A program made the position numbers and the translations under genes. Of a stretch of DNA of 21,452 bases, positions 1-11,205 are shown one piece after another (the stretch's first letter is position 1; the number at the start of each line of letters is the position of its first letter). The notes beneath the pieces are model-generated. The model did not search any database. It was given only the letters and a program-made list of their open reading frames with translations, and was not told the DNA's origin. Location: positions 1 to 21,452 of IMG/VR virus record IMGVR_UViG_3300017773_000180; one strand, 5' to 3'. The DNA comes from a virus.

Positions 1-693
1 ATCGCCATTTTTGTTTTCTATGTAACCGCCTTCTGCATCGGTATACATGCCCAAGCGGTAGCCAGTTGTACTGCCAATTTGAATTGCGGGATTTGCTTGT
101 GACCCTTGTGTTTCTGCGATGCCGCCGACATGCAAAAGTGCGTTTGGGCTGTTGGTGCTAACACCAATCCGATTTAGGGAAGCATCCACGAAGAGCATAT
201 GATCTTGTGTGTCACTTTCGACCCTGAAATCCATTGTCGAGCTACCGCTCTGATTGAGAACAATAGTCCCGTCAAAGGCAGCGTGTTCTACGTTCCCCGC
301 AACAATCCGAATATCATTAGCGCCAGCAAACTTGAAGTGAGTATCTGTGTCGCCTGTGTGGGTTAATTTCTCCGCAATAAAAACTTCGCCGCTTGCCGTG
401 ACCGTACCCGTGACATCAATCCCACTGCTATTAACTGTCAATTTAGTTGAGCCAGCCTTCTGAATCAGCAAATCACCAGTGCCAGCCTGATTGATAATTG
501 ACTGCGTAGGGGTATGGACTAAAGTTAGATCCTGCGAATTACCTAACTGAATCTGCTCATTATCGCCCAAACGGATCTGATCAACATTTACAGTATCTGC
601 CTTAACGCGCACGTTTCCGCCTGATCGAACGACGATAAGATCATCTGTGGGTAACAGGCTTCCGCCGTCACTTAACTCACTGATTTTTGACAT
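1..693 (-). CDS. Tail fibre protein, N-terminal part (cut by window edge)
   Basis: An open frame of 231 codons begins at the ATG at 693 and runs off the left edge without a stop, so the C-terminus is missing. The start is supported by AGGAG a few bases upstream (AATAGGAGTTTACC before ATG). The protein opens with MSKISELSDGG, then a short acidic/hydrophobic segment (LLPTDDLIVVRSGG), an opening I associate with phage tail fibres. It continues with beta-rich repeats, and near residues 175-190 carries RIGVSTNSPNALLHVGG. That resembles the 'GIGT..P...LHV' repeats that often precede an S74 chaperone domain, so the missing part may end in one. It follows the adhesin gene by 22 bases and is probably co-transcribed with it. 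The inferred role is a receptor-binding side fibre. The fibre call is fairly secure; the receptor is unknown. Confidence 0.7.
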   Translation of the reverse strand, partial: MSKISELSDGGSLLPTDDLIVVRSGGNVRVKADTVNVDQIRLGDNEQIQLGNSQDLTLVHTPTQSIINQAGTGDLLIQKAGSTKLTVNSSGIDVTGTVTASGEVFIAEKLTHTGDTDTHFKFAGANDIRIVAGNVEHAAFDGTIVLNQSGSSTMDFRVESDTQDHMLFVDASLNRIGVSTNSPNALLHVGGIAETQGSQANPAIQIGSTTGYRLGMYTDAEGGYIENKNGD

Positions 694-715: not shown

Positions 716-3700
716 TTACGGCAATTTCTTTAACTGTTCTATCTCAGCCTTCAAATCTTTGACTGCCTCAATCAAATAGCCAACGATGTCACCGTAAGCG
801 ACTGATAACATTCCGTCTTCGTTTTCTTTGACTAATTCGGGTGCGACTTCCTGCAACTCTTGAGCTATAACACCCGCGCCCTTTTCTCCTGCCTTAGTAA
901 AACTAACGCCGCGCATGTCAAATACTTTGCTTCCATCTATCGTTTCAACATCAGACTTCAGTCGGATGTCAGACCCTTGGGTGACGGTTCCCGAAATAGT
1001 GATATTTCCGTCTGCGAAGTAGTTTCCATTGGTGTCAATCGTCGCGCCAGTGCTGCCATAGCCGCCATTAAACTTAATGCCATTTCCAGCCGCTTCTATA
1101 TCTAAACTGTCACCGGATTTTGGTACAGTTATTCCGTGATTAGGGCTTCCAACATCCCCAGCGCCAGAACCTAGATCGTCCACCCCGTTGTAGAAATATA
1201 TCCCGCCTAAAGGCTGTATTGAGTTTGGATCAGTTGTCTCGCCTCGACCGGCTATGAAGATACCGCCGTATCTGTTGCCAGTAGGATTTTCTTCGTTGAC
1301 CGCTATCGTCAGACTGCCGCCGTCAATCAGTGTGTTGTTATACAATTTAGTGAAATAAGTCTGTGGATTACCTTTTGCAACCGATGACAGACCGTGGTCT
1401 GAATCGGTATACGTCAATGCGTTATTAATTGATAATCTTCTAGGATTAGTCAGTGCAGGACTGCCCGTTGCGGGATATGGGCTATAAGTTCCGTCCGTGA
1501 CTGCTACAACTACCCTAACGAAATACTCACCTTTAGGGAATCCATAGACCGTGACCTGTTCAGTCATGTAGTAGTCTTCGTCAGTTATCCCATAGGCATA
1601 ATCAGAATGACCTAAGCCAGTAAAGTCTGTTGCTGCTTGCGAGGCTGTCGCCAAGTCTGCGCGATAGTTACCGCTTCCTAAGTCAGTCACTTTGACGTAG
1701 TAATTGCTATTTAACTGCCCGGCAGTGAATTTCTTGCTGGATAAAGCTGCTGAACCAAAGTTGACCCAAGTCCCTGGAGACCCTCCACTATTAGGTGCAT
1801 ACTGAATCTGCAACGACAATTGCGACATGATCGCGTTCTGTGCATTTGTCTCGCCCGATATAGTCCCAGAAGTCAAAGGTCCAGCATAGAACGAAGCGTA
1901 CAACGTAAGATTCTGATCAAAGTCATTCGCAAAGAAAACATAATCAGTATTGCTTGTCAGATCTAACACAGAACTCCTGACAGCAACCGGAACCTTAGAA
2001 TTTGAATCGTAACTTGGTTCGCCGCCAGTAGTAAAACTAACCGCATTTGCTGCTACATTTAATGTGTCGCCATCCCATGTCAAAGACTTACCCGTAGACG
2101 CATCACCTATGCTTAACTTATAAGCGTCAGTGTCATAGCCTAAGAAAAACCCTTTGCCAGTATTAAATGCTGTCGATGTGCCTCCGTAAAAATTACCAGT
2201 AGTCCCAACACTGACCGCGCCAGTAAATGACCCGCTAGTAGCGGTTATGGCACCACTTATAGTTGCGCTAGTAGCTGTCAAAGCCCCTGCTGGCGTTACT
2301 CTGAACGGCGCATTGGCAAAGGTATTATTCCCCAATGAAATACCGTCAGCAGTTGACAGTGAAACCCTAGAAGTCCCATCCCCCGCAATCAGACTTGTTG
2401 CACCTAGTGTAAATCCACCAATGGTTCCTGATGTAGAAGTTATGTTGCCTCTAAACGTCCCATCTCCAGCTTCGAACGTGCCATCTGTCGTCAGTTTCCA
2501 ACCGGCAGATCCTGCTGAATAATCAGTCGATTGCAGCGTGTCTGCTATCTTGTCCAGAGTTACAGCATTGTCTGCGACCTGGGTAGTATCGACACCGCCA
2601 TCTGCGATTACCAGATTAACGTCACTGCCTACGGTTTCGGTCGTAAACATGGTTCCGTTTAACGACAAGCGATCAGCTTTGATTTCACCGCTTACTATAA
2701 GACTGCCACTTATCTCAACATCTGTTCCCATCACAATTTTCTGAGCCGTAACTGTGAACGGAGCTAGAGCCGTTAATGACGTATCCGCAGGATCTACAAC
2801 CTTAAACTTGTCAGCGGTAACTACAAATTCCGACTCTGTAGCACCCGAAGAAGTTGTTGAAGACAACCCGTAACCGGCTATCGAACCATTAGCGTCAATC
2901 TTTATATACTTCTGAGCTATTACATCCCCGACATCATCAGAGATAACCGATGTAGCATTCTCAATAGTGGCGTAAGTCCCGTCAGGCTTAATAACTGTCA
3001 AAGCCTTGACAGCTTCCGCTAATGCCGCGTCACCGTTCCAAGTATTTCCTGCCGCAACGCATAAAGTAGCGTTTTTATGGTCCGTTAAGTTCCCACTTCC
3101 ATCTACGCAATAACCAATCCTTGAAACATTGTTATCAGTAATCAAAGAGGCCGTGGTGTTTGCTGGGGTCCAGTTGCTTAAGTTATTAAGCGGAGTTTCT
3201 CCAGTGTTGGCAACCGCCGCAACGTAGGGAATCCCAAGATATACAACGCCCGATCCAGCCGCGTAGGTTTCTGTTACATCCCAATTATCCGTAGCCACTA
3301 ATCCAGTGACTGCGTAAAGAGTCTGAGCATCACTTACAAGTACAGCGCCGTCTCCAACATTCGCCGTCAGTGTATTAACGACTCCCCCGACAGCCGCTAA
3401 GCCCGTTGAGGGGTCTTCTACGGTCGCTTTCAATGCAGTTAAGGCTGACGCATTAGCTGATGTAGAAGTGCCGTCCAGTGTGTTTATTTGGGTTACATCA
3501 GTCTGTAATGCCGTAACGGCGTTAGCACTACCGCTCAAAACGCCGTCTTTTTCTAATATAGAGTTTAAGAGGGTGATTTCTGTTGACTGAACTGTAATAG
3601 AGTCTTCAGTTAAAGTGGTTCTCGTCTGTAGATCTTTTTGCGCTAGTCCTGCCGCCGCCGCTACATCAGATAATTCTTCGTGATTAAGATCGCCCGGTGT

Positions 3701-6700
3701 CGAGGTCTCGCCCTCAATAGCACTTCCGCTCTCGTCAGACGCTATTGTCCTAAATACTAGGTCAGCCGTTAATGTAGTGTTGGAAGTGCTTAGAGAAGTT
3801 ACAGTTCCGTTTAGACTTGTAACCGTTCCGTCTAAAGTGCTGATTGCTCCCGCATTAGCATCAATTCCTGCGTCTCTTACCGCAACAAAGGTAATGCCGT
3901 TATGACGATATAATTTATTGCTGTCGTTAGAATCAATCCACAGGTCGCCGACCGACCCGCTAGGCATGTCATCTTGCACAAAGGTAAGTATCTTTGAGTC
4001 AGCGGTGCTTTGAGCCGATGCTGCATTTAAGATAGCCTGATTAATATCCGTGTCTCTGGCTGCAACCCAAGTAGAGCCGCTCCAACGATACATCTTATTT
4101 TTATCGTTAGTATCAACCCATAAATCTCCAGTAGCTACTGCTGTTGGAGTATCGTCTTGAAAGAAGGTTGTAATTTTGCCTTGGGCTAAAGCGGTATTGG
4201 CCGCTACATTTGTGTTTGTAGTCGATAAGTTAGCCGTAAGGTTAGTTATTGAGTTGGCATTAGCGCCAATCCGAGGATCTTCTAAGCTAACCCATGCTGA
4301 TCCAGTCCAATAATAAGGATGGTTGTCATCGTCTGAGTCGTACCAACGTGAAAAATCAGGTATAGGGTTTGGGATGCCGCCTTGACCGGGAACTGGTGCA
4401 GTTGTCTGGATAAAGATGTCACTTACACCAGAAGTCAGATCAACAATAGTCGCTTCCAGGTTACTAAGACCTAAAGATACGGTATTAATATTTCCTTGCA
4501 AGATAGCATCTTGATCAGAAACGTAAATCGCAACATCACCAAGGTTCTGTATATCGACATCAGCGCCACTCTCTAGGTCTAACACCTGACCGGCCTCAAC
4601 CTCAACTGTCAGTATTTCTTGTCTAACTGCTGCGTTGTTAATTAAATTTGCAGTGTCTGTGACAGTAGCAGTGTTTTGTATATTTAAAGACGTAGCTGTC
4701 AAAGCGCCAGTCAAGGTAGCCGTGGTAGCAGTTAAAACCCCCGCTGGCGTAACTCTAAAGGGAGCAGATCCAAAGATAGCGTTGCCAAGATAAACCCCAT
4801 TCGAATCAGCCTTGAAAATATTATTACCCGAGCCAATTGAGATTGTTCCACCGCTTAACTCGCCAGAGAACGTACCAGTTGCCGCACTTAAAGCGCCTGA
4901 GAACGTGCCGCCTCCATCAACCGTTAAAGTTGACCCGTCCCAAGATAGTTTATCTTTAAGGCTAAATTGACCCTGATCGTCTGCATAGAAAGCTGTGTTG
5001 GCGTTGTTGAAAGTACCCGTACCAACGTGAATGCTGTCGGCATCTACAGTAATTCCACCAATACTTCCGGTCGAGGCGCTAATATTTCCTCGTACCACCG
5101 TGTTGTTAAACGTGGTATCGCCGTTCTTACTAATCTGCCAACCAGTTTGATTAGGTACGCTAAAGTTATCAGATTGAAGCGTGGTAGCAATCTGATCGGA
5201 CCCTACGGCATCACTGATAATCTGAGCAGTATTAATTGAGTCATCTGCCATAACCGCATTGGCAATCTTCAACGCCGTTACAGCGGTAGGAGATCCAAAC
5301 GGAACCAAAGCAGACTTAGATGTATTGGTAGAACCAGACGCAGGGGTCGAGCCTAAAGGATACTTGACTGCCTGAATCCAATAATACTTAGCTGTACCGC
5401 CAGCAACCTGATGAGTAAACGCTGTGCCTCTGAACTTCTCAATCGGAGTTGCGGGAGGGGTAGTGGTATCACTAGCGTAAATCCAGATCTGCTCCCATGC
5501 CCCAATATTGGTTGGGTTAGTCCATGCGAGATTAACTGAGTTATATCCAGCGGTTGCTGTAAAGTTAGTCGGGAGTGGAACGTCAGCCAGGGAGCTAGTG
5601 ATAACACCAGTGTTAGAGATTTGATTGTACTCACCCTCGGCTGGGTCGGCGTATCGTGCGGAATCATCCTCGATAAGACTAAGATCAATAGCTCCATTCC
5701 CACTTTCAGAGAACGACCAGCCAATGACTTTAAACTCTTTGCTTGGATTCCAGTCAGCGTCAATCGTGGCGAAGTCGTTTAACGCAAGCGTAATACGGTC
5801 TCCAACTGCGACCTTCATACCTTTTAGGTTGACCGGAAGGCTTAAAGTAGTTTGCAGAAAAGATTGATTGACCTTCTTGATCGCAATCCTTTGTGCAACG
5901 TACCTGTCTGACGTAAAGGTTAGCTTAACTTCTTCCTCTAAGACTTCCCCATTGTCTCTAGCTACAGCTCCTGAAACTGTTCTAGGAGCGAACTCGGTCA
6001 TCTTGTAGTTCGAGTCAGGGTCTATAAACATACCCTTGATCGTGTTAAATCTGTCTGCTCTAGGTATTGAAGTCTTGACTGTGAAGTCACCAGCGAGATC
6101 GTCCTCAGTGAATGCCAGACTAGATGCTTCGTGTATGCCAGCCTTAATGATGTATTTGCCCTGAGAATAAATCAGGTCGCCATTCATGCCGCTTAGTATT
6201 TTAGATATAGACTTTCGGTGATTGTCTGACCCGAAAATAACGCCAGAACCAAAGAAGCGTTTTTGAGTCTGGCTTGTAGGAATAGGAACTAAGAAGTCAC
6301 AAGCATCTGCGGCTGTTACTACCGCAGCCCAATCTATCTTGCTGGCTGGAATACCTAGACCAAAGGAAGAATCCATCAGGTAATCAGCAAGCATCAAAGC
6401 AGGGTTCTGACCCTGCAAGTCCCTCTGATGTGTTGCAGTAGTGGCCCCGTCAGAGTATTTGATATACGCAGCGGTGGTAGGGTTGTCGCCAGCATTATTT
6501 CCAGCGGCTACATCTAACCGTGGGTCATAAACAGCCTTACCCTTTACAACCGCCTTAATGTTTTGAATGCCGCCAACTTCGTCCCAGGTTTCTCTGGTGC
6601 CTTCGTGTATGGTCCAACGAGTATAAATACTGGCTACACCATCGCCTCGATGGGTGCTCTCGTATCCTTTCCCTGCATTAAGTCCAGTGCCAGCAAAAGC

Positions 6701-7198
6701 AGTAACTAAATCGGAGTAAGCAGTTTGCGATGCAGATCCATCTCGAGTTTCGATATGCACCATTGTCTCAAGCGTGCCGTCCTCGTTCGTTTTCTTTGCG
6801 AACTTTCCAGAAGTAACGTCACCACTTCCATCAACTTGCGTCGATAGGTCAATAGAGTAGTCGTCGAGAAATATTTTATCTATAGACGTTAATTTGTGGC
6901 CAGCAATAGCAATAACTTGATGCAGATTCTTATTGTTAGCCCCATCGACTTGTGCGAAAGAAACCACACCACTAATCATTGTCTCGCCGTAAACTAACTT
7001 TCTAGGCTCAATAGTGCTTCGTACTGTGGTCTGTCTTGCTCTATCGGTATCAACAACGCCCATGTCGATTTTGGGCATTAAGGCTTTGGCAATGACTACT
7101 GTCCCGACAATAGCGGCAGCTCCAGCAATAGCCGCCGCTGTTCCTGCAAGGCCAAAGATAGATCCTACTGTCGTTAAAAAAGCAACTACTGGCGGCAT
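716..7198 (-). CDS. J-like tail tip adhesin with FN3, sugar-binding-like modules and C-terminal S74 chaperone
   Basis: A giant central tail-tip protein of about 2160 residues. I start it at the ATG at 7198, which has GGAG 8 bases upstream; an in-frame GTG at 7207 lies too close to that site. It overlaps the DUF6950 gene by 13 bases. In order: an Ala/Gly-rich hydrophobic segment (about residues 5-45); a lambda J/GTA tip-protein-like region (about 50-535); an FN3-type domain (about 540-618); fibre repeats with RGNISASTGSIGG (650-840); three modules of the type 'GDLWVDTND...MYRWSGSTWV' (about 925-1120); a segment spaced like carbohydrate-binding module 5/12 (about 1302-1345); a C-x15-C element (1360-1390); J/DUF1983-like sequence; a second copy of the fibre repeats (1530-1665); beta-rich sequence; and an S74 domain from QGSDIRLKSDV (about 2076) to the end. 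S74 domains trimerise fibres and then cleave themselves off at the Ser-Asp bond. The likely role is host recognition; the sugar-binding assignments are inference. Confidence 0.88.
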   Translation of the reverse strand: MPPVVAFLTTVGSIFGLAGTAAAIAGAAAIVGTVVIAKALMPKIDMGVVDTDRARQTTVRSTIEPRKLVYGETMISGVVSFAQVDGANNKNLHQVIAIAGHKLTSIDKIFLDDYSIDLSTQVDGSGDVTSGKFAKKTNEDGTLETMVHIETRDGSASQTAYSDLVTAFAGTGLNAGKGYESTHRGDGVASIYTRWTIHEGTRETWDEVGGIQNIKAVVKGKAVYDPRLDVAAGNNAGDNPTTAAYIKYSDGATTATHQRDLQGQNPALMLADYLMDSSFGLGIPASKIDWAAVVTAADACDFLVPIPTSQTQKRFFGSGVIFGSDNHRKSISKILSGMNGDLIYSQGKYIIKAGIHEASSLAFTEDDLAGDFTVKTSIPRADRFNTIKGMFIDPDSNYKMTEFAPRTVSGAVARDNGEVLEEEVKLTFTSDRYVAQRIAIKKVNQSFLQTTLSLPVNLKGMKVAVGDRITLALNDFATIDADWNPSKEFKVIGWSFSESGNGAIDLSLIEDDSARYADPAEGEYNQISNTGVITSSLADVPLPTNFTATAGYNSVNLAWTNPTNIGAWEQIWIYASDTTTPPATPIEKFRGTAFTHQVAGGTAKYYWIQAVKYPLGSTPASGSTNTSKSALVPFGSPTAVTALKIANAVMADDSINTAQIISDAVGSDQIATTLQSDNFSVPNQTGWQISKNGDTTFNNTVVRGNISASTGSIGGITVDADSIHVGTGTFNNANTAFYADDQGQFSLKDKLSWDGSTLTVDGGGTFSGALSAATGTFSGELSGGTISIGSGNNIFKADSNGVYLGNAIFGSAPFRVTPAGVLTATTATLTGALTATSLNIQNTATVTDTANLINNAAVRQEILTVEVEAGQVLDLESGADVDIQNLGDVAIYVSDQDAILQGNINTVSLGLSNLEATIVDLTSGVSDIFIQTTAPVPGQGGIPNPIPDFSRWYDSDDDNHPYYWTGSAWVSLEDPRIGANANSITNLTANLSTTNTNVAANTALAQGKITTFFQDDTPTAVATGDLWVDTNDKNKMYRWSGSTWVAARDTDINQAILNAASAQSTADSKILTFVQDDMPSGSVGDLWIDSNDSNKLYRHNGITFVAVRDAGIDANAGAISTLDGTVTSLNGTVTSLSTSNTTLTADLVFRTIASDESGSAIEGETSTPGDLNHEELSDVAAAAGLAQKDLQTRTTLTEDSITVQSTEITLLNSILEKDGVLSGSANAVTALQTDVTQINTLDGTSTSANASALTALKATVEDPSTGLAAVGGVVNTLTANVGDGAVLVSDAQTLYAVTGLVATDNWDVTETYAAGSGVVYLGIPYVAAVANTGETPLNNLSNWTPANTTASLITDNNVSRIGYCVDGSGNLTDHKNATLCVAAGNTWNGDAALAEAVKALTVIKPDGTYATIENATSVISDDVGDVIAQKYIKIDANGSIAGYGLSSTTSSGATESEFVVTADKFKVVDPADTSLTALAPFTVTAQKIVMGTDVEISGSLIVSGEIKADRLSLNGTMFTTETVGSDVNLVIADGGVDTTQVADNAVTLDKIADTLQSTDYSAGSAGWKLTTDGTFEAGDGTFRGNITSTSGTIGGFTLGATSLIAGDGTSRVSLSTADGISLGNNTFANAPFRVTPAGALTATSATISGAITATSGSFTGAVSVGTTGNFYGGTSTAFNTGKGFFLGYDTDAYKLSIGDASTGKSLTWDGDTLNVAANAVSFTTGGEPSYDSNSKVPVAVRSSVLDLTSNTDYVFFANDFDQNLTLYASFYAGPLTSGTISGETNAQNAIMSQLSLQIQYAPNSGGSPGTWVNFGSAALSSKKFTAGQLNSNYYVKVTDLGSGNYRADLATASQAATDFTGLGHSDYAYGITDEDYYMTEQVTVYGFPKGEYFVRVVVAVTDGTYSPYPATGSPALTNPRRLSINNALTYTDSDHGLSSVAKGNPQTYFTKLYNNTLIDGGSLTIAVNEENPTGNRYGGIFIAGRGETTDPNSIQPLGGIYFYNGVDDLGSGAGDVGSPNHGITVPKSGDSLDIEAAGNGIKFNGGYGSTGATIDTNGNYFADGNITISGTVTQGSDIRLKSDVETIDGSKVFDMRGVSFTKAGEKGAGVIAQELQEVAPELVKENEDGMLSVAYGDIVGYLIEAVKDLKAEIEQLKKLP

Positions 7199-7578
7199 AT
7201 CGCCCACTCCGCTATTACATATTTATATTCAACTGCCTTTAACCCTTTTTCGGTTATACAGACAACATTGCCTTTATACCTAACGCCTAAAAGCTCGCCA
7301 ATGGAAGGTATAAACAAAACACAAACGTCTCCGTCCTTTTCTGCCTTACTAGGCTCACCAAGCAGACTTGAAATCAAACCTACTAGGCCGTTATGTTCTT
7401 CAATGATCCTTTGTGCTTCTTCTTCTGAACCGTATTGGAATTTAGCGGCGTGATCTTCGCCGGTAATCTCTTTGACCACATGGGATGCAAACTGACAGCA
7501 ATCTGTTGAGCCATACTGGAAATCGTTCTTCTCCCAAGTGTTAAGTGAGGAAAGAAACTTGTTGGCAATGATGTTCAT
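7186..7578 (-). CDS. DUF6950 / NlpC-P60-like tail tip protein (lambda K position)
   Basis: A protein of 130 residues placed immediately before the J-like adhesin, where lambda K and the GTA peptidase are found. The N-terminal motif YGSTDCCQFASHV (residues 22-34) matches the 'W/YG..DC..FA' block carrying the catalytic Cys of NlpC/P60 enzymes; Cys27 is the candidate nucleophile, and the neighbouring Cys28 is an extra. The C-terminal LLGVRYKGNV...EKGLKAV...AEW matches the tail of DUF6950 proteins as I remember them. The usual NlpC histidine motif is not visible, which is also my recollection for DUF6950. It may cleave peptidoglycan during DNA entry or act only structurally. It starts 2 bases after the preceding stop with a weak GCGAGC site, so coupled translation is likely. 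The family call is fairly firm; enzymatic activity is uncertain. Confidence 0.75.
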   Translation of the reverse strand: MNIIANKFLSSLNTWEKNDFQYGSTDCCQFASHVVKEITGEDHAAKFQYGSEEEAQRIIEEHNGLVGLISSLLGEPSKAEKDGDVCVLFIPSIGELLGVRYKGNVVCITEKGLKAVEYKYVIAEWAICRQ

Positions 7579-7580
7579 TT

Positions 7581-8255
7581 TTAGCTCGCGTTAAAGTCTA
7601 TGCTTTCCAAATCAATATCATCAAACGGCGCACTATCAAAGCCCGGACCACCGGCAATCCTAGATCCTTTATTGCCCCAAGCTAAAGTCAAGTCTTCCAT
7701 ATCTTGCAACTGATTAAAGAAGGTATCTCCAGTGCTAATGGTTTGCTGAGATGAGTTTGTGAACAACAAATTACGAGACCGCTCGAACATTGCAAGCTCG
7801 CTCTCACAGTTCAACACTAGAGAATCACCGCCTTCGGCTCCAACGCTTGCAGTCATAAGGTCCATGAAACCTGTCCACATAACGTCCGGCGTGGCCACTA
7901 GCTGATCGCTGTCATTTAAGGCCCCGACATACAAAGTCACGGGACGCTGATAGTAACTTTCCTTAATCGCCTCACCAACAAGGTCAGGATCTAAGCCTGA
8001 AAGAGTAAGCTGGATACCGTATGGGCTAACTTCCTCGCCTTCTTGTATCTTGCTTATCTGTCCAAGATCACCTGTTCCTAGCCAGTTCTGATTACCAGAT
8101 CCATCGTTCCAAGTGTAGGTGCCAAGGCCATTGTGAAGCCTTATAGTTCCTACACCGGCAGTCGGAGGCAAGAATTCCAGCTTCACAAATGTAATAGGAA
8201 ATACGTTGGATGCCGAATACGATATTGCTGTGTTGCTGGCTAGGTCTCTGCTCAT
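7581..8255 (-). CDS. Tail tip / baseplate hub protein (DUF2163- or lambda L-like position)
   Basis: A protein of 224 residues between the distal-tail-type protein and the DUF6950 protein, the position held by lambda L and GTA DUF2163 hub proteins. It is soluble, beta-rich and has no signal peptide. Recognisable stretches are FVKLEFLPP near residues 22-30, the glycine-rich TYTWNDGSG region, ISKIQEGEEVSPYGIQLTLSG (about 67-88), and a later PVTLYVGALN...MWTGFMD stretch. The last pattern is the 'vtly.G.ld....l....lf.G.id' type seen in small siphovirus tip proteins. Its ATG overlaps the upstream stop by 4 bases (ATGA). The inferred role is linking the distal tail ring to the central adhesin. The position supports the tail-tip call more strongly than the sequence does; the exact Pfam family is uncertain. 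Confidence 0.65.
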   Translation of the reverse strand: MSRDLASNTAISYSASNVFPITFVKLEFLPPTAGVGTIRLHNGLGTYTWNDGSGNQNWLGTGDLGQISKIQEGEEVSPYGIQLTLSGLDPDLVGEAIKESYYQRPVTLYVGALNDSDQLVATPDVMWTGFMDLMTASVGAEGGDSLVLNCESELAMFERSRNLLFTNSSQQTISTGDTFFNQLQDMEDLTLAWGNKGSRIAGGPGFDSAPFDDIDLESIDFNAS

Positions 8256-8857
8256 GTTGCTAAGACATCCTCAATTGCGTCAATACTGAAGCTAGAAAAT
8301 AACCCCGGCTTGGTGTCCCAGCTTGCGCTAGAAGTCAGCATGAAAACCCCTGAAGGGGTATCCAAATCCACTGCATCTCCAACTGATGAATTTCTAACGG
8401 CTGGAGAAACGCCCACACTAAGTCCGGTGGTCGCCGTAGTTGCAGCCATTGCGGTTGTACACATAAATAACTGCCCGTTGGCGCTTATATAGTCACCTTT
8501 ATCGATGCTGATAGAGCTGCTTAAACTGCGAGTAAAGTTAAGCGTGTTACCAGAACTAGCAGCCGTTACTAGCCCGGTATCGACACCAGATCCCCTGCGA
8601 ACAAAAGAATGATCAACAATACTGAATCTATGCTCTTGACCTTCTAGCTTGGCAAGAAAAGCCTGCAAGTTTGCTCGATCTTCGCCTGATAAGTTATTGA
8701 AAGCTAAAGATATTTTCCAGTAAGATCCTTTCCTTGCTGCCGTCTGTACAGCATTGGTCAACGGGCTACGGAACATCCTGGAATTACTCACTAGCTCCCA
8801 AGCTGATGTGCTGGGTAGTACATTGGGTACATCTGTTGCAAATACGAAAGTGGTCAT
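8252..8857 (-). CDS. Minor tail protein, distal-tail type (lambda M / GTA DUF2460 position)
   Basis: A protein of 201 residues directly after the tape measure gene, with which it shares a 4-base ATGA overlap; it shares another with the next gene. The N-terminal part carries WELVSNSRMFRSPLT (about residues 20-34), then a region of the type 'QTAARKGSYWKISLAFNNLSG', an 'ANLQAFLAKLEGQEHRF' helix and DHSFVRRG. This arrangement, substrate-like loop, framework strands and a helix followed by F..VDHS, is one I recognise from small siphovirus minor tail proteins. The rest (residues 95-201) is Ser/Thr/Ala-rich and beta-like and could form the outer face of a ring. The inferred role is the distal tail ring that closes the tube and holds the tip. 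I cannot assign a named domain. Confidence 0.65.
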   Translation of the reverse strand: MTTFVFATDVPNVLPSTSAWELVSNSRMFRSPLTNAVQTAARKGSYWKISLAFNNLSGEDRANLQAFLAKLEGQEHRFSIVDHSFVRRGSGVDTGLVTAASSGNTLNFTRSLSSSISIDKGDYISANGQLFMCTTAMAATTATTGLSVGVSPAVRNSSVGDAVDLDTPSGVFMLTSSASWDTKPGLFSSFSIDAIEDVLAT

Positions 8858-11205
8858 ACGAATCTACGCCTTCTTGATAGGTCGCGTATTGTTTCAATAG
8901 TGGTGGCCGCTGTCTCTTGCATTGCCTTTCGTATCTTAACATCTACGCTGGCATCTGCGCCCCTGGCATCTACGTTATTAACAATGGTGATTCCGTCACC
9001 GCCACCCATAGCCTTCTTAAGCTGGTCATTGCTTGATACTCGGCCTGAACCTCCCATTGTGAGAAGCTCTGGTCCCCGTTCTCCGACTAGGTATGACTGC
9101 CCTCCCATAACCTGTCCACCAGTTGCTCTGGCAGCAGCAGCGGCGGCGCTGTTCGCGCTAACTGCGGCGGCTAATGGAGCAGTTACGCCAATTGCCGTAG
9201 CCATCGCAGCGGGAGCGGCGGCTGGGCCATAAATAGGAATTGCGGCGGTGCTGGTATAGGCATTTATTCCCGCCATTATGCTTTGGGCGCTGGCTGTTAA
9301 TCCCATATATGTCGCTACAGATGCCGCTGAAGCCTTAGTCAGAGTTTTCTCCACAATCGCTAAAGCCATTCTTTTAGCAATCATTTGGGCAATAGCTGCT
9401 AAAAAGGAACTAATCATCCCTCGCGCAAACTCTTGGAACGCTTCTTTAGCATTCATAGTTCCAGTTAATATTCCCTCAAAAGCGTTAGCCATATTAGACT
9501 CTAAGCTCATTGCGAGAGAAACTTGCAATAAGTCAATCCTCTCGACAGCCTCTTTAGTCGTTGCAACCCAACGCTCTAAAGCAGTCATATTGTTTTCTAG
9601 GAATTGAATTTGGCGTTTACGATTCTTTTCTGCGGTTTCGTCTTGTATTTGATTAACTAATGCGCCGTACTCAGTCTCCAGCTCTGCGAGCGCGGCGTAG
9701 TATTGCGTTATGTCTATTCTCTTGGCATCAAGATCTTCTCTCAAGCGATCTCTTTGCCTCTGTTGTGAGGTTTCAAGCTGGACTAATCTCTTGTCATCCT
9801 CTTGCGCTAGTATTGAGTTTACTAATCGGTTCGCCGCGATTCTTGCGTCTAGCTGTTTTTGTTCTTCTTGCTGTTGCCTTTGGAATGCTTTAAATCCAGC
9901 CTCGCCAGCCCTTATAGCTAGAGCCGCTTTTTTCTCCGTTGTTTCTTGCAGTCTTTGGAAACTTGCTCGCTCTATGTTGGCTATAAGCTCATCTGCTCTG
10001 GCGCTGTCAATTACTCCCCGCATGACAGCTTCTCTGGTCTTAGCTATTTGCGCGTCTTGCGATGCAAAGAACTTTTCATCTGCCGTTTGCCTAAGAGCGA
10101 TTTGATCAGCAATCATTTTATCGAAAGCCGCTCTCTCTGCCTCTATGGCCTCAATCTCTCCAGCAGTCTGAAGTTGGCCGCTCTGTATATTGCTTTGAAC
10201 CGTCTGAAGGTCTTCCAAGGCTCCTGTTGCTAATCGGACGTTTCTTGCTTGCTTGACAAAAACATCGGCAAATTCGTCGTAAGCCTTTGTGTCGGAACTT
10301 TCGCCCCTCAACCTTTTTACTGTTTCCTGTAATTCATTAAATAACTCAGGTGTTCGTTGCTCTTTGAACTTTGCAAAAGCCAATCCCAGATCACTAGCTT
10401 GGCGAGCTGTTAGACCTAAACCTTCGCCAAACTTTCTAATCTTACTCATCCCTGCAAGGCTTATGTTGCTCAAGTCATTTACAGATTTAGCAACACCGTC
10501 AACCTTGTCTTGATAATTCTGAAAAATATTTGATTGTACTTCTAGCGGAAAGTTTAAAGCCTCCTCAATATCGCTTAATGACTTCTCTAAGCCTCTTTGA
10601 GTCCTGCTTATATCTAACTCAATCTCAAGCTCTGCCAATGCTTTTGATTCTTTGGCTAGTTTAGCGAATTCTTGACTTAGAGCAAAAACTCCACCCTTTG
10701 ACCTATCGGTCATTAAATTTAATCGGCCTAAAGCGTCTTTTAGGTCATCAACGCCTTCTTCAGCGTCTTCGGTGGTCGAGAGTAATACACTGCCTATAAG
10801 AGCGCCGAAAGCAACCAAGGCGCCAGTAACCGCTCCAGCGGGTCCGAATACAGATAGGAGCTGAGGGCCCTGTTGGGCGAGAATTGTTAAACCGGCGGTG
10901 CCGGACTGCGCTTGGACTGCAATATCTTGAAGCTGAAATGAAACTTGCTGAGTTGCCCCTCGCATTGCGCGAAAGCCACCCCTAGCTTTTGTGTGAACTG
11001 ACGCCGCCGTATTAACGGCTTCATTGCTCTTGGTTTGAGCTGTGGTGTACTGCTTCTGAGCGGCTGTGCTTTTCTTAGTCTCTGTTGTGTATTGTTTGAC
11101 GGCTTCCTCAGCCGCGTCAGCATTGACGCCCAGCTTTCGCAGTGCTTCCTGAGCCTCTTTTATTCCTTTGGAAGTTACCCGTATGTCTAGGTTTGCATCA
11201 GCCAT
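8854..11205 (-). CDS. Tail tape measure protein
   Basis: The tape measure protein sets tail length and travels with the DNA at injection. The 783 residues have the expected layout. An N-terminal helical region leads into a hydrophobic, Gly/Ala-rich segment (about 75-143) with FQLQDIAVQAQSG, TILAQQGPQ and VTGALVAFGALIG. A long charged helical, coiled-coil-rich middle follows (about 150-600, with repeated Glu/Lys/Arg/Gln runs). A second hydrophobic Ala-rich region (about 600-690) leads into the C-terminal SYLVGERGPELLTM motif (about 697-710) typical of lambda-type tape measures. The final residues are very basic (RRRRFV). I see no peptidase or lysozyme domain. At about 0.15 nm per residue the tail would be near 117 nm. 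The ATG overlaps the -1-frame chaperone ORF by 8 bases, as in lambda where GT precedes H. Confidence 0.93.
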   Translation of the reverse strand: MADANLDIRVTSKGIKEAQEALRKLGVNADAAEEAVKQYTTETKKSTAAQKQYTTAQTKSNEAVNTAASVHTKARGGFRAMRGATQQVSFQLQDIAVQAQSGTAGLTILAQQGPQLLSVFGPAGAVTGALVAFGALIGSVLLSTTEDAEEGVDDLKDALGRLNLMTDRSKGGVFALSQEFAKLAKESKALAELEIELDISRTQRGLEKSLSDIEEALNFPLEVQSNIFQNYQDKVDGVAKSVNDLSNISLAGMSKIRKFGEGLGLTARQASDLGLAFAKFKEQRTPELFNELQETVKRLRGESSDTKAYDEFADVFVKQARNVRLATGALEDLQTVQSNIQSGQLQTAGEIEAIEAERAAFDKMIADQIALRQTADEKFFASQDAQIAKTREAVMRGVIDSARADELIANIERASFQRLQETTEKKAALAIRAGEAGFKAFQRQQQEEQKQLDARIAANRLVNSILAQEDDKRLVQLETSQQRQRDRLREDLDAKRIDITQYYAALAELETEYGALVNQIQDETAEKNRKRQIQFLENNMTALERWVATTKEAVERIDLLQVSLAMSLESNMANAFEGILTGTMNAKEAFQEFARGMISSFLAAIAQMIAKRMALAIVEKTLTKASAASVATYMGLTASAQSIMAGINAYTSTAAIPIYGPAAAPAAMATAIGVTAPLAAAVSANSAAAAAARATGGQVMGGQSYLVGERGPELLTMGGSGRVSSNDQLKKAMGGGDGITIVNNVDARGADASVDVKIRKAMQETAATTIETIRDLSRRRRFV

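Follow-up and report, generated by a model that had tools for sequence, protein, structure and literature searches.

In phage lambda, the tail-tip protein gpJ follows the tape measure, the distal tail protein, the hub and a K-type gene, and joins a hub-type base to an FN3 domain, a PF09327 central fibre and a distal receptor-binding end (PMC10721106). T5 pb1 and the K1F endosialidase are proteins of another kind, namely lateral fibres or tailspikes, in which a beta-rich distal domain precedes a C-terminal S74 domain, also called the intramolecular chaperone auto-processing (ICA) domain, with a Ser-Lys dyad at i/i+5 spacing and a C-terminal helix (PMC4690869). In T5 pb1 the dyad is S1264/K1269 and the chain is cut between Thr1263 and Ser1264 (PMC4690869); the corresponding pairs are S587/K592 in MyRF and S911/K916 in endoNF (PMC8326128). 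Here, I describe a protein of 2160 residues which, judged by homology, is a lambda J-type protein whose central tip ends in S74. It is encoded on a contig of an uncultured phage (IMG/VR record IMGVR_UViG_3300017773_000180; 21,452 bases, analysed whole and hereafter called the window). The homology, the dyad, the mosaic pattern of related contigs and the positions of their junctions together suggest a trimeric J tip with a stalk, a putative receptor-binding end and a self-cleaving S74 domain, exchanged as a cartridge, a reading to which I give a probability of roughly 0.8.

A lambda J-type protein ending in an S74 domain

The genes are arranged as in the tail region of a lambda-like siphophage. 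The minus strand encodes terminase, portal, a Mu F-like protein, coat, tail tube, tail assembly chaperone and tape measure, and then a distal tail protein, a hub protein, a DUF6950 protein in the K position, the 2160-residue protein in the place of lambda J and the start of a further fibre gene. Residues 2-563 match phrog_5616 (E 2e-65) as well as phrog_31, 'central tail fiber J' (E 2e-60), and the Pfam family Phage-tail_3 scores at its cutoff over residues 328-472. Pfam alone is blind to the FN3 region, where it gives no match; a profile built from homologues over residues 533-634 weakly matches the Fn3-like protein 3mpc (E 0.0036) and the phage J central-fibre structure 9ze4 (E 0.0047). Farther along the chain, PF09327 (Phage_Tail_Tip) aligns with two stretches (E 5e-24), one of which is listed in Table 1, and residues 1495-1601 match the J-like gp24 of PDB entry 23gd (E 1e-7). 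By sequence, therefore, this is a tail-tip and central-fibre protein of the lambda J type, yet it is nearly twice as long as lambda J (1132 residues) and, unlike lambda J, carries modules rich in Trp and Asp (W/D modules), a segment resembling carbohydrate-binding modules (CBM) of family 5/12, a duplicated fibre element and an S74 end.

The S74 domain scores 40.7 bits against Peptidase_S74 (PF13884), for which the Pfam cutoff is 22. Its motif QGSDIRLKSDV starts at residue 2074 and contains the dyad S2076/K2081, at i/i+5 spacing; the S, D, R and K of SDxRxK are invariant across ten aligned S74 domains (alignment A4). A profile of the domain aligns the dyad with those of 6f45, a long tail fibre distal subunit, and 7dc3, MyRF (E 5e-12), and in the AlphaFold model residues 2135-2157 form a C-terminal helix, as expected of the coiled-coil helix of ICA domains. 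A self-cleaving end is well supported by homology. Since the spacing of Ser and Lys is that of T5 pb1, MyRF and endoNF, a cut before Ser2076 would free residues 2076-2160, that is 85 residues, as against the 133 of the S74/ICA domain of T5 pb1.

A preliminary description of this stretch, made from its letters, had placed a protein of 2160 residues at positions 716-7198 and had proposed for it a J-like base, an FN3 domain and an S74 end that loses its last 85 or so residues. The reading frame is confirmed on the minus strand (719-7198, with the stop codon at 716-718; an alternative GTG start at 7207 would add 3 residues), the base is borne out by its profile matches and by gene order, FN3 finds the weak backing given above and the S74 claim is upheld, the loss expected from the predicted cut being exactly 85 residues.

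The S74 domain may be an unusual partner for a J base. Many fibres end in S74 in a scan of viral contigs, and none of those has a J base; the J profile was built from the present group, so that distant J bases could escape the scan. About 150 S74 entries listed for isolated phages, not an exhaustive set, are lateral or long tail fibres, tailspikes, baseplate proteins or unnamed proteins, and none carries the annotation of a tail-tip J from a siphophage. A literature search of incomplete coverage returned no report of S74 on J, which is weak evidence. Among the S74 proteins sampled, then, none joined an ICA domain to J, and the combination may be known elsewhere.

Mosaic relatives and the positions of their junctions

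About twenty related contigs, all of them from metagenomes, were compared with the window gene by gene, by DNA and residue by residue. Two (L038 and L011) belong to almost the same phage as the window, with coat 99%, tail assembly chaperone 100%, K-like and distal tail proteins 95% and J base 96% identical; their backbone DNA is 88-92% identical up to J residue ~677, after which there is no similarity. Another J (L034) diverges from that of the window at ~718, and a third (L036) remains similar to ~1588 and then continues into a different end without S74. Conversely, L002 has a base of 45% protein identity and DNA that is 95% identical from codon 1456 past the end of J and into the gene that follows (from codon ~1520 on, most bins are at 93-100%); the pattern recurs, at slightly lower identity, in L017, while L012 and L019 are shared with the window from ~1617. 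In L013 the base is 88-91% identical, yet the S74 is of another type. In nine contigs, bases 38-46% identical to that of the window are joined to distal parts (1741-2073) that are 76-99% identical. In the window the contig end truncates the next fibre gene, whose start is 100% identical over 60 amino acids in L002 and L158.

The distal end, the S74 domain and the next gene travel together, independently of the base: the distal end is shared in L002, L017, L012 and L019, and other ends are found in L038, L036 and L013. The preliminary description had spoken of shuffled parts, which these protein, DNA and residue comparisons now document; the mosaic history itself, as well as an internal duplication, lies beyond what it had proposed. 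The duplication relates residues 636-851 to 1527-1669 with a score of 238 (shuffled sequences, 63 +/- 10), and each of the five groups of junctions falls no farther than about 20 residues from the conserved part of one of its two copies. Those at ~677 and ~718 belong to copy 1, while those at ~1519 (L002, L017), ~1588 (L036) and ~1617-1630 (L012, L019) lie in or beside copy 2. In relatives of the L003 type the base runs directly into an element like copy 2, so that the window looks like this arrangement with a cassette of ~870 residues inserted between the two copies. L009, on a contig of its own, has the same full arrangement, which argues that the window is not an obvious assembly chimera.

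Probable stalk modules, the putative distal end and the rest of the locus

The three tandem W/D-rich modules recognised in the preliminary description are present and resemble each other (E 1e-9 to 6e-19), with the consensus TFxQxxxPTAxxxGDLWxDTxDxNKxYRxxGSxWV; a profile seeded from them recovers 153 copies, spread over 48 proteins that hold between 1 and 8 each. They are also found in two very long proteins (L081, 2273 amino acids; L084, 2908 amino acids) with no clear match to the J base. In an AlphaFold model of residues 900-1425 each module shows four short strands and then a long helix, and the module blocks have a predicted local distance difference test score (pLDDT) of mostly 75-90. 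The modules lie between helices, and in relatives with 38-46% identical bases coil-like sequence mostly stands in place of modules 2 and 3. They have no relative in Pfam or among PDB sequences, carbohydrate-binding families included, and Foldseek searches of the PDB with both AlphaFold models returned nothing at E <= 0.001. By VIA-align, the structural neighbours of module 3 are the collagen XV/XVIII trimerisation domain, the N-terminal prism of BPP-1 Mtd and the C-terminal end of the CBA120 tailspike TSP3, most matches coming from trimeric fibres. The collagen domain and the Mtd prism share with module 3 a four-strand unit of 37-49 residues superposed at 1.7-4.3 Å; they differ in that identity is 8-18%, Z is only about 3 (2.5-3.1 over all these weak matches) and no sequence profile matches. 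An assignment of the modules to Mtd or collagen domains by sequence was accordingly rejected, and the structural resemblance stays a lead. The trimeric neighbours, the variable copy number, the position between helices and the coil-like replacement of modules 2 and 3 nevertheless suggest that the modules are probably trimerisation clasps or stalk spacers. The proposal that they are repeated sugar-binding modules is not borne out, since they match no CBM in sequence and their weak structural neighbours are mainly trimerisation beta-prisms.

The segment following these modules is probably a distant relative of CBM family 5/12. In the window the family matches residues 1305-1343 at E 0.09 and 13.3 bits, and in homologues at E 4.5e-4 to 7.7e-4, reaching 20.6 bits in L041, still under the curated cutoff of 26.2. 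Among PDB sequences, the CBMs of chitin-oligosaccharide deacetylases come closest (E 0.02). The family-like spacing noticed in the preliminary description (Y..G..V.Y.G..Y...N.G..P.....W) is present here, the pattern in common with family 5/12 being W..Y..G..V.Y.G..Y; the match to the family falls below the curated cutoff. The segment is found only in relatives with the same cassette. The C-x15-C element, also reported there, is kept in the four relatives with that cassette (L009, L019, L033, L036); both segments are modelled at low confidence, with pLDDT about 25 at the CBM-like place. The region around the Cys pair is shared by the tail-tip protein of Vibrio phage vB-Vv-ZX4290 (L094), whose gene lies two genes before the Avd gene of a diversity-generating retroelement.

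Within copy 1 of the fibre element, a match of residues 695-770 to allene oxide cyclase (E 0.16) was taken as chance. The putative distal receptor-binding part, residues 1741-2073, matches nothing among 50,697 phage records. Residues 1739-1930 are modelled as a compact beta-rich body (pLDDT ~70); its likeness to TNF-like and other beta sandwiches (Z 5-7) is a common resemblance from which no family was drawn.

Table 1. Features of the 2160-residue protein and its neighbours; positions are those of the window
Feature	Residues	Position	Strand	Evidence
J-like tail-tip / central-fibre protein	1-2160	719..7198	minus	open reading frame; phrog_5616 and phrog_31
J base (tail hub part)	1-533	5600..7198	minus	phrog_5616; Phage-tail_3 at cutoff
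FN3-like domain	534-634	5297..5599	minus	profile of homologues
Fibre element copy 1	640-851	4646..5281	minus	self-alignment; junctions L038, L034
W/D module 1	922-979	4262..4435	minus	module hidden Markov model (HMM) E 4e-19; four strands then helix
W/D module 2	1005-1054	4037..4186	minus	module HMM E 2e-25
W/D module 3	1066-1114	3857..4003	minus	module HMM E 1e-19
CBM5/12-like segment	1302-1346	3161..3295	minus	13.3 bits in window
C-x15-C element (C1364/C1380)	1364-1380	3059..3109	minus	
PF09327 Phage_Tail_Tip (central straight fibre)	1424-1592	2423..2929	minus	E 5e-24
Fibre element copy 2	1527-1669	2192..2620	minus	self-alignment
Putative distal receptor-binding part	1741-2073	980..1978	minus	
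S74/ICA self-cleaving chaperone (predicted)	2076-2160	719..973	minus	Pfam 40.7 bits
Predicted catalytic Ser2076	2076	971-973	minus	
Predicted catalytic Lys2081	2081	956-958	minus	
Next fibre gene, start only		1..693	minus	moves with J distal end
DUF6950 (lambda K position), hub protein, distal tail protein		7186..8857	minus	

In L007, L009 and L010 the gene after J carries its own C-terminal S74 domain, so two tandem S74 proteins are likely. At the other end of J, the first ~45 residues (window 7064-7198) are strongly hydrophobic, and the K-like gene is followed by J without a separate gpI gene; J may begin with a gpI-like segment fused to it. The tape measure (window 8854-11205) is mosaic too, being 61% identical to those of L038 and L011 over 30% of its length, between flanking genes at 87-100%. 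The genome collection gave no informative relative for host assignment.

A tail tip that may carry its own folding helper

The proposed course of events is as follows. The N-terminal ~640 residues would form, by homology, the hub and the FN3 collar of the tail tip, and residues ~640-1740 an extended stalk built from fibre elements, coil-like helices and the small four-stranded W/D modules, the latter probably acting as trimerisation or spacer clasps; residues ~1741-2073 would be the putative receptor-binding end. By analogy with T5 pb1 and the K1F endosialidase, the last 85 residues would fold as a trimer and aid the formation of the distal beta structure, after which S74/ICA would cut before Ser2076 and depart. 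The distal end, the chaperone and the start of the next gene would then make up a cartridge, exchanged by recombination at the conserved fibre element which the protein contains twice. That it is moved as a portable unit at this element, among phages with about 40% identical bases, and that the chaperone riding along frees the tip from the folding helper of the recipient, is put forward tentatively, at slightly less than even odds.

Several points weigh against the reading as a whole: the AlphaFold model of the distal part is poor (mean pLDDT 52), the structural matches of the W/D modules are weak and without sequence support, and, although five random points would lie as close to the fibre elements as the junctions do with a chance of about 5e-5, the zone used for that estimate was defined once the junctions were known. 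In addition, the oxyanion arginine, which in T5 pb1 stands 14 residues before the Ser, has no counterpart in residues 1986-2078, where there is no Arg. This absence, together with the shortness of the domain relative to that of T5 pb1, would fit an S74 domain that has lost cleavage yet still folds J and brings about its trimerisation. Such a loss is improbable, for the Ser and the Lys are kept by every one of the ten aligned domains and MyRF self-cleaves through its dyad without stalk contacts (PMC8326128); an upstream arginine contributed by the neighbouring chain has been proposed for T5 and K1F, yet the MyRF case indicates that it is not universal. 

The mosaic could also be an artefact of metagenome assembly, in which tail genes from separate phages were fused into one contig where their fibre sequence is conserved; conserved repeated elements, where the junctions lie, are prone to misjoining, and all relatives are metagenome contigs. 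I regard this as very unlikely: separate contigs bear out the union of base and cassette (L036) and that of cassette and distal end (L009 and L019), and the nine contigs that join unlike bases to like distal ends do so at graded identities, not all ~100%. Less far-fetched, though still unlikely, is that the W/D and CBM5/12-like modules form a glycan-binding array by which the phage would first attach, reversibly, to host polysaccharide, as in CBM-decorated Dit and Tal, where functional decorations are known (PMC7291167). The CBM5/12-like matches in homologues and the deacetylase CBMs speak for such an array; the score below the curated cutoff, the confinement of the segment to relatives with this cassette, and W/D modules that match no CBM in sequence, resemble trimerisation prisms and, for modules 2 and 3, give way to coil-like sequence in relatives speak against it. 

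An exchangeable J tip that is predicted to cleave itself would bear on how phages change hosts. Phage host range is set by tail-tip exchange, and a newly acquired distal end nonetheless has to reach its trimeric fold on the base of another phage; a chaperone that is carried with the distal end and removes itself would, if true, solve this problem. The natural junctions at codons ~677, ~718, ~1519, ~1588 and ~1617 provide points against which the cartridge idea can be checked, and the W/D unit is a widespread fibre module that has no Pfam family of its own.

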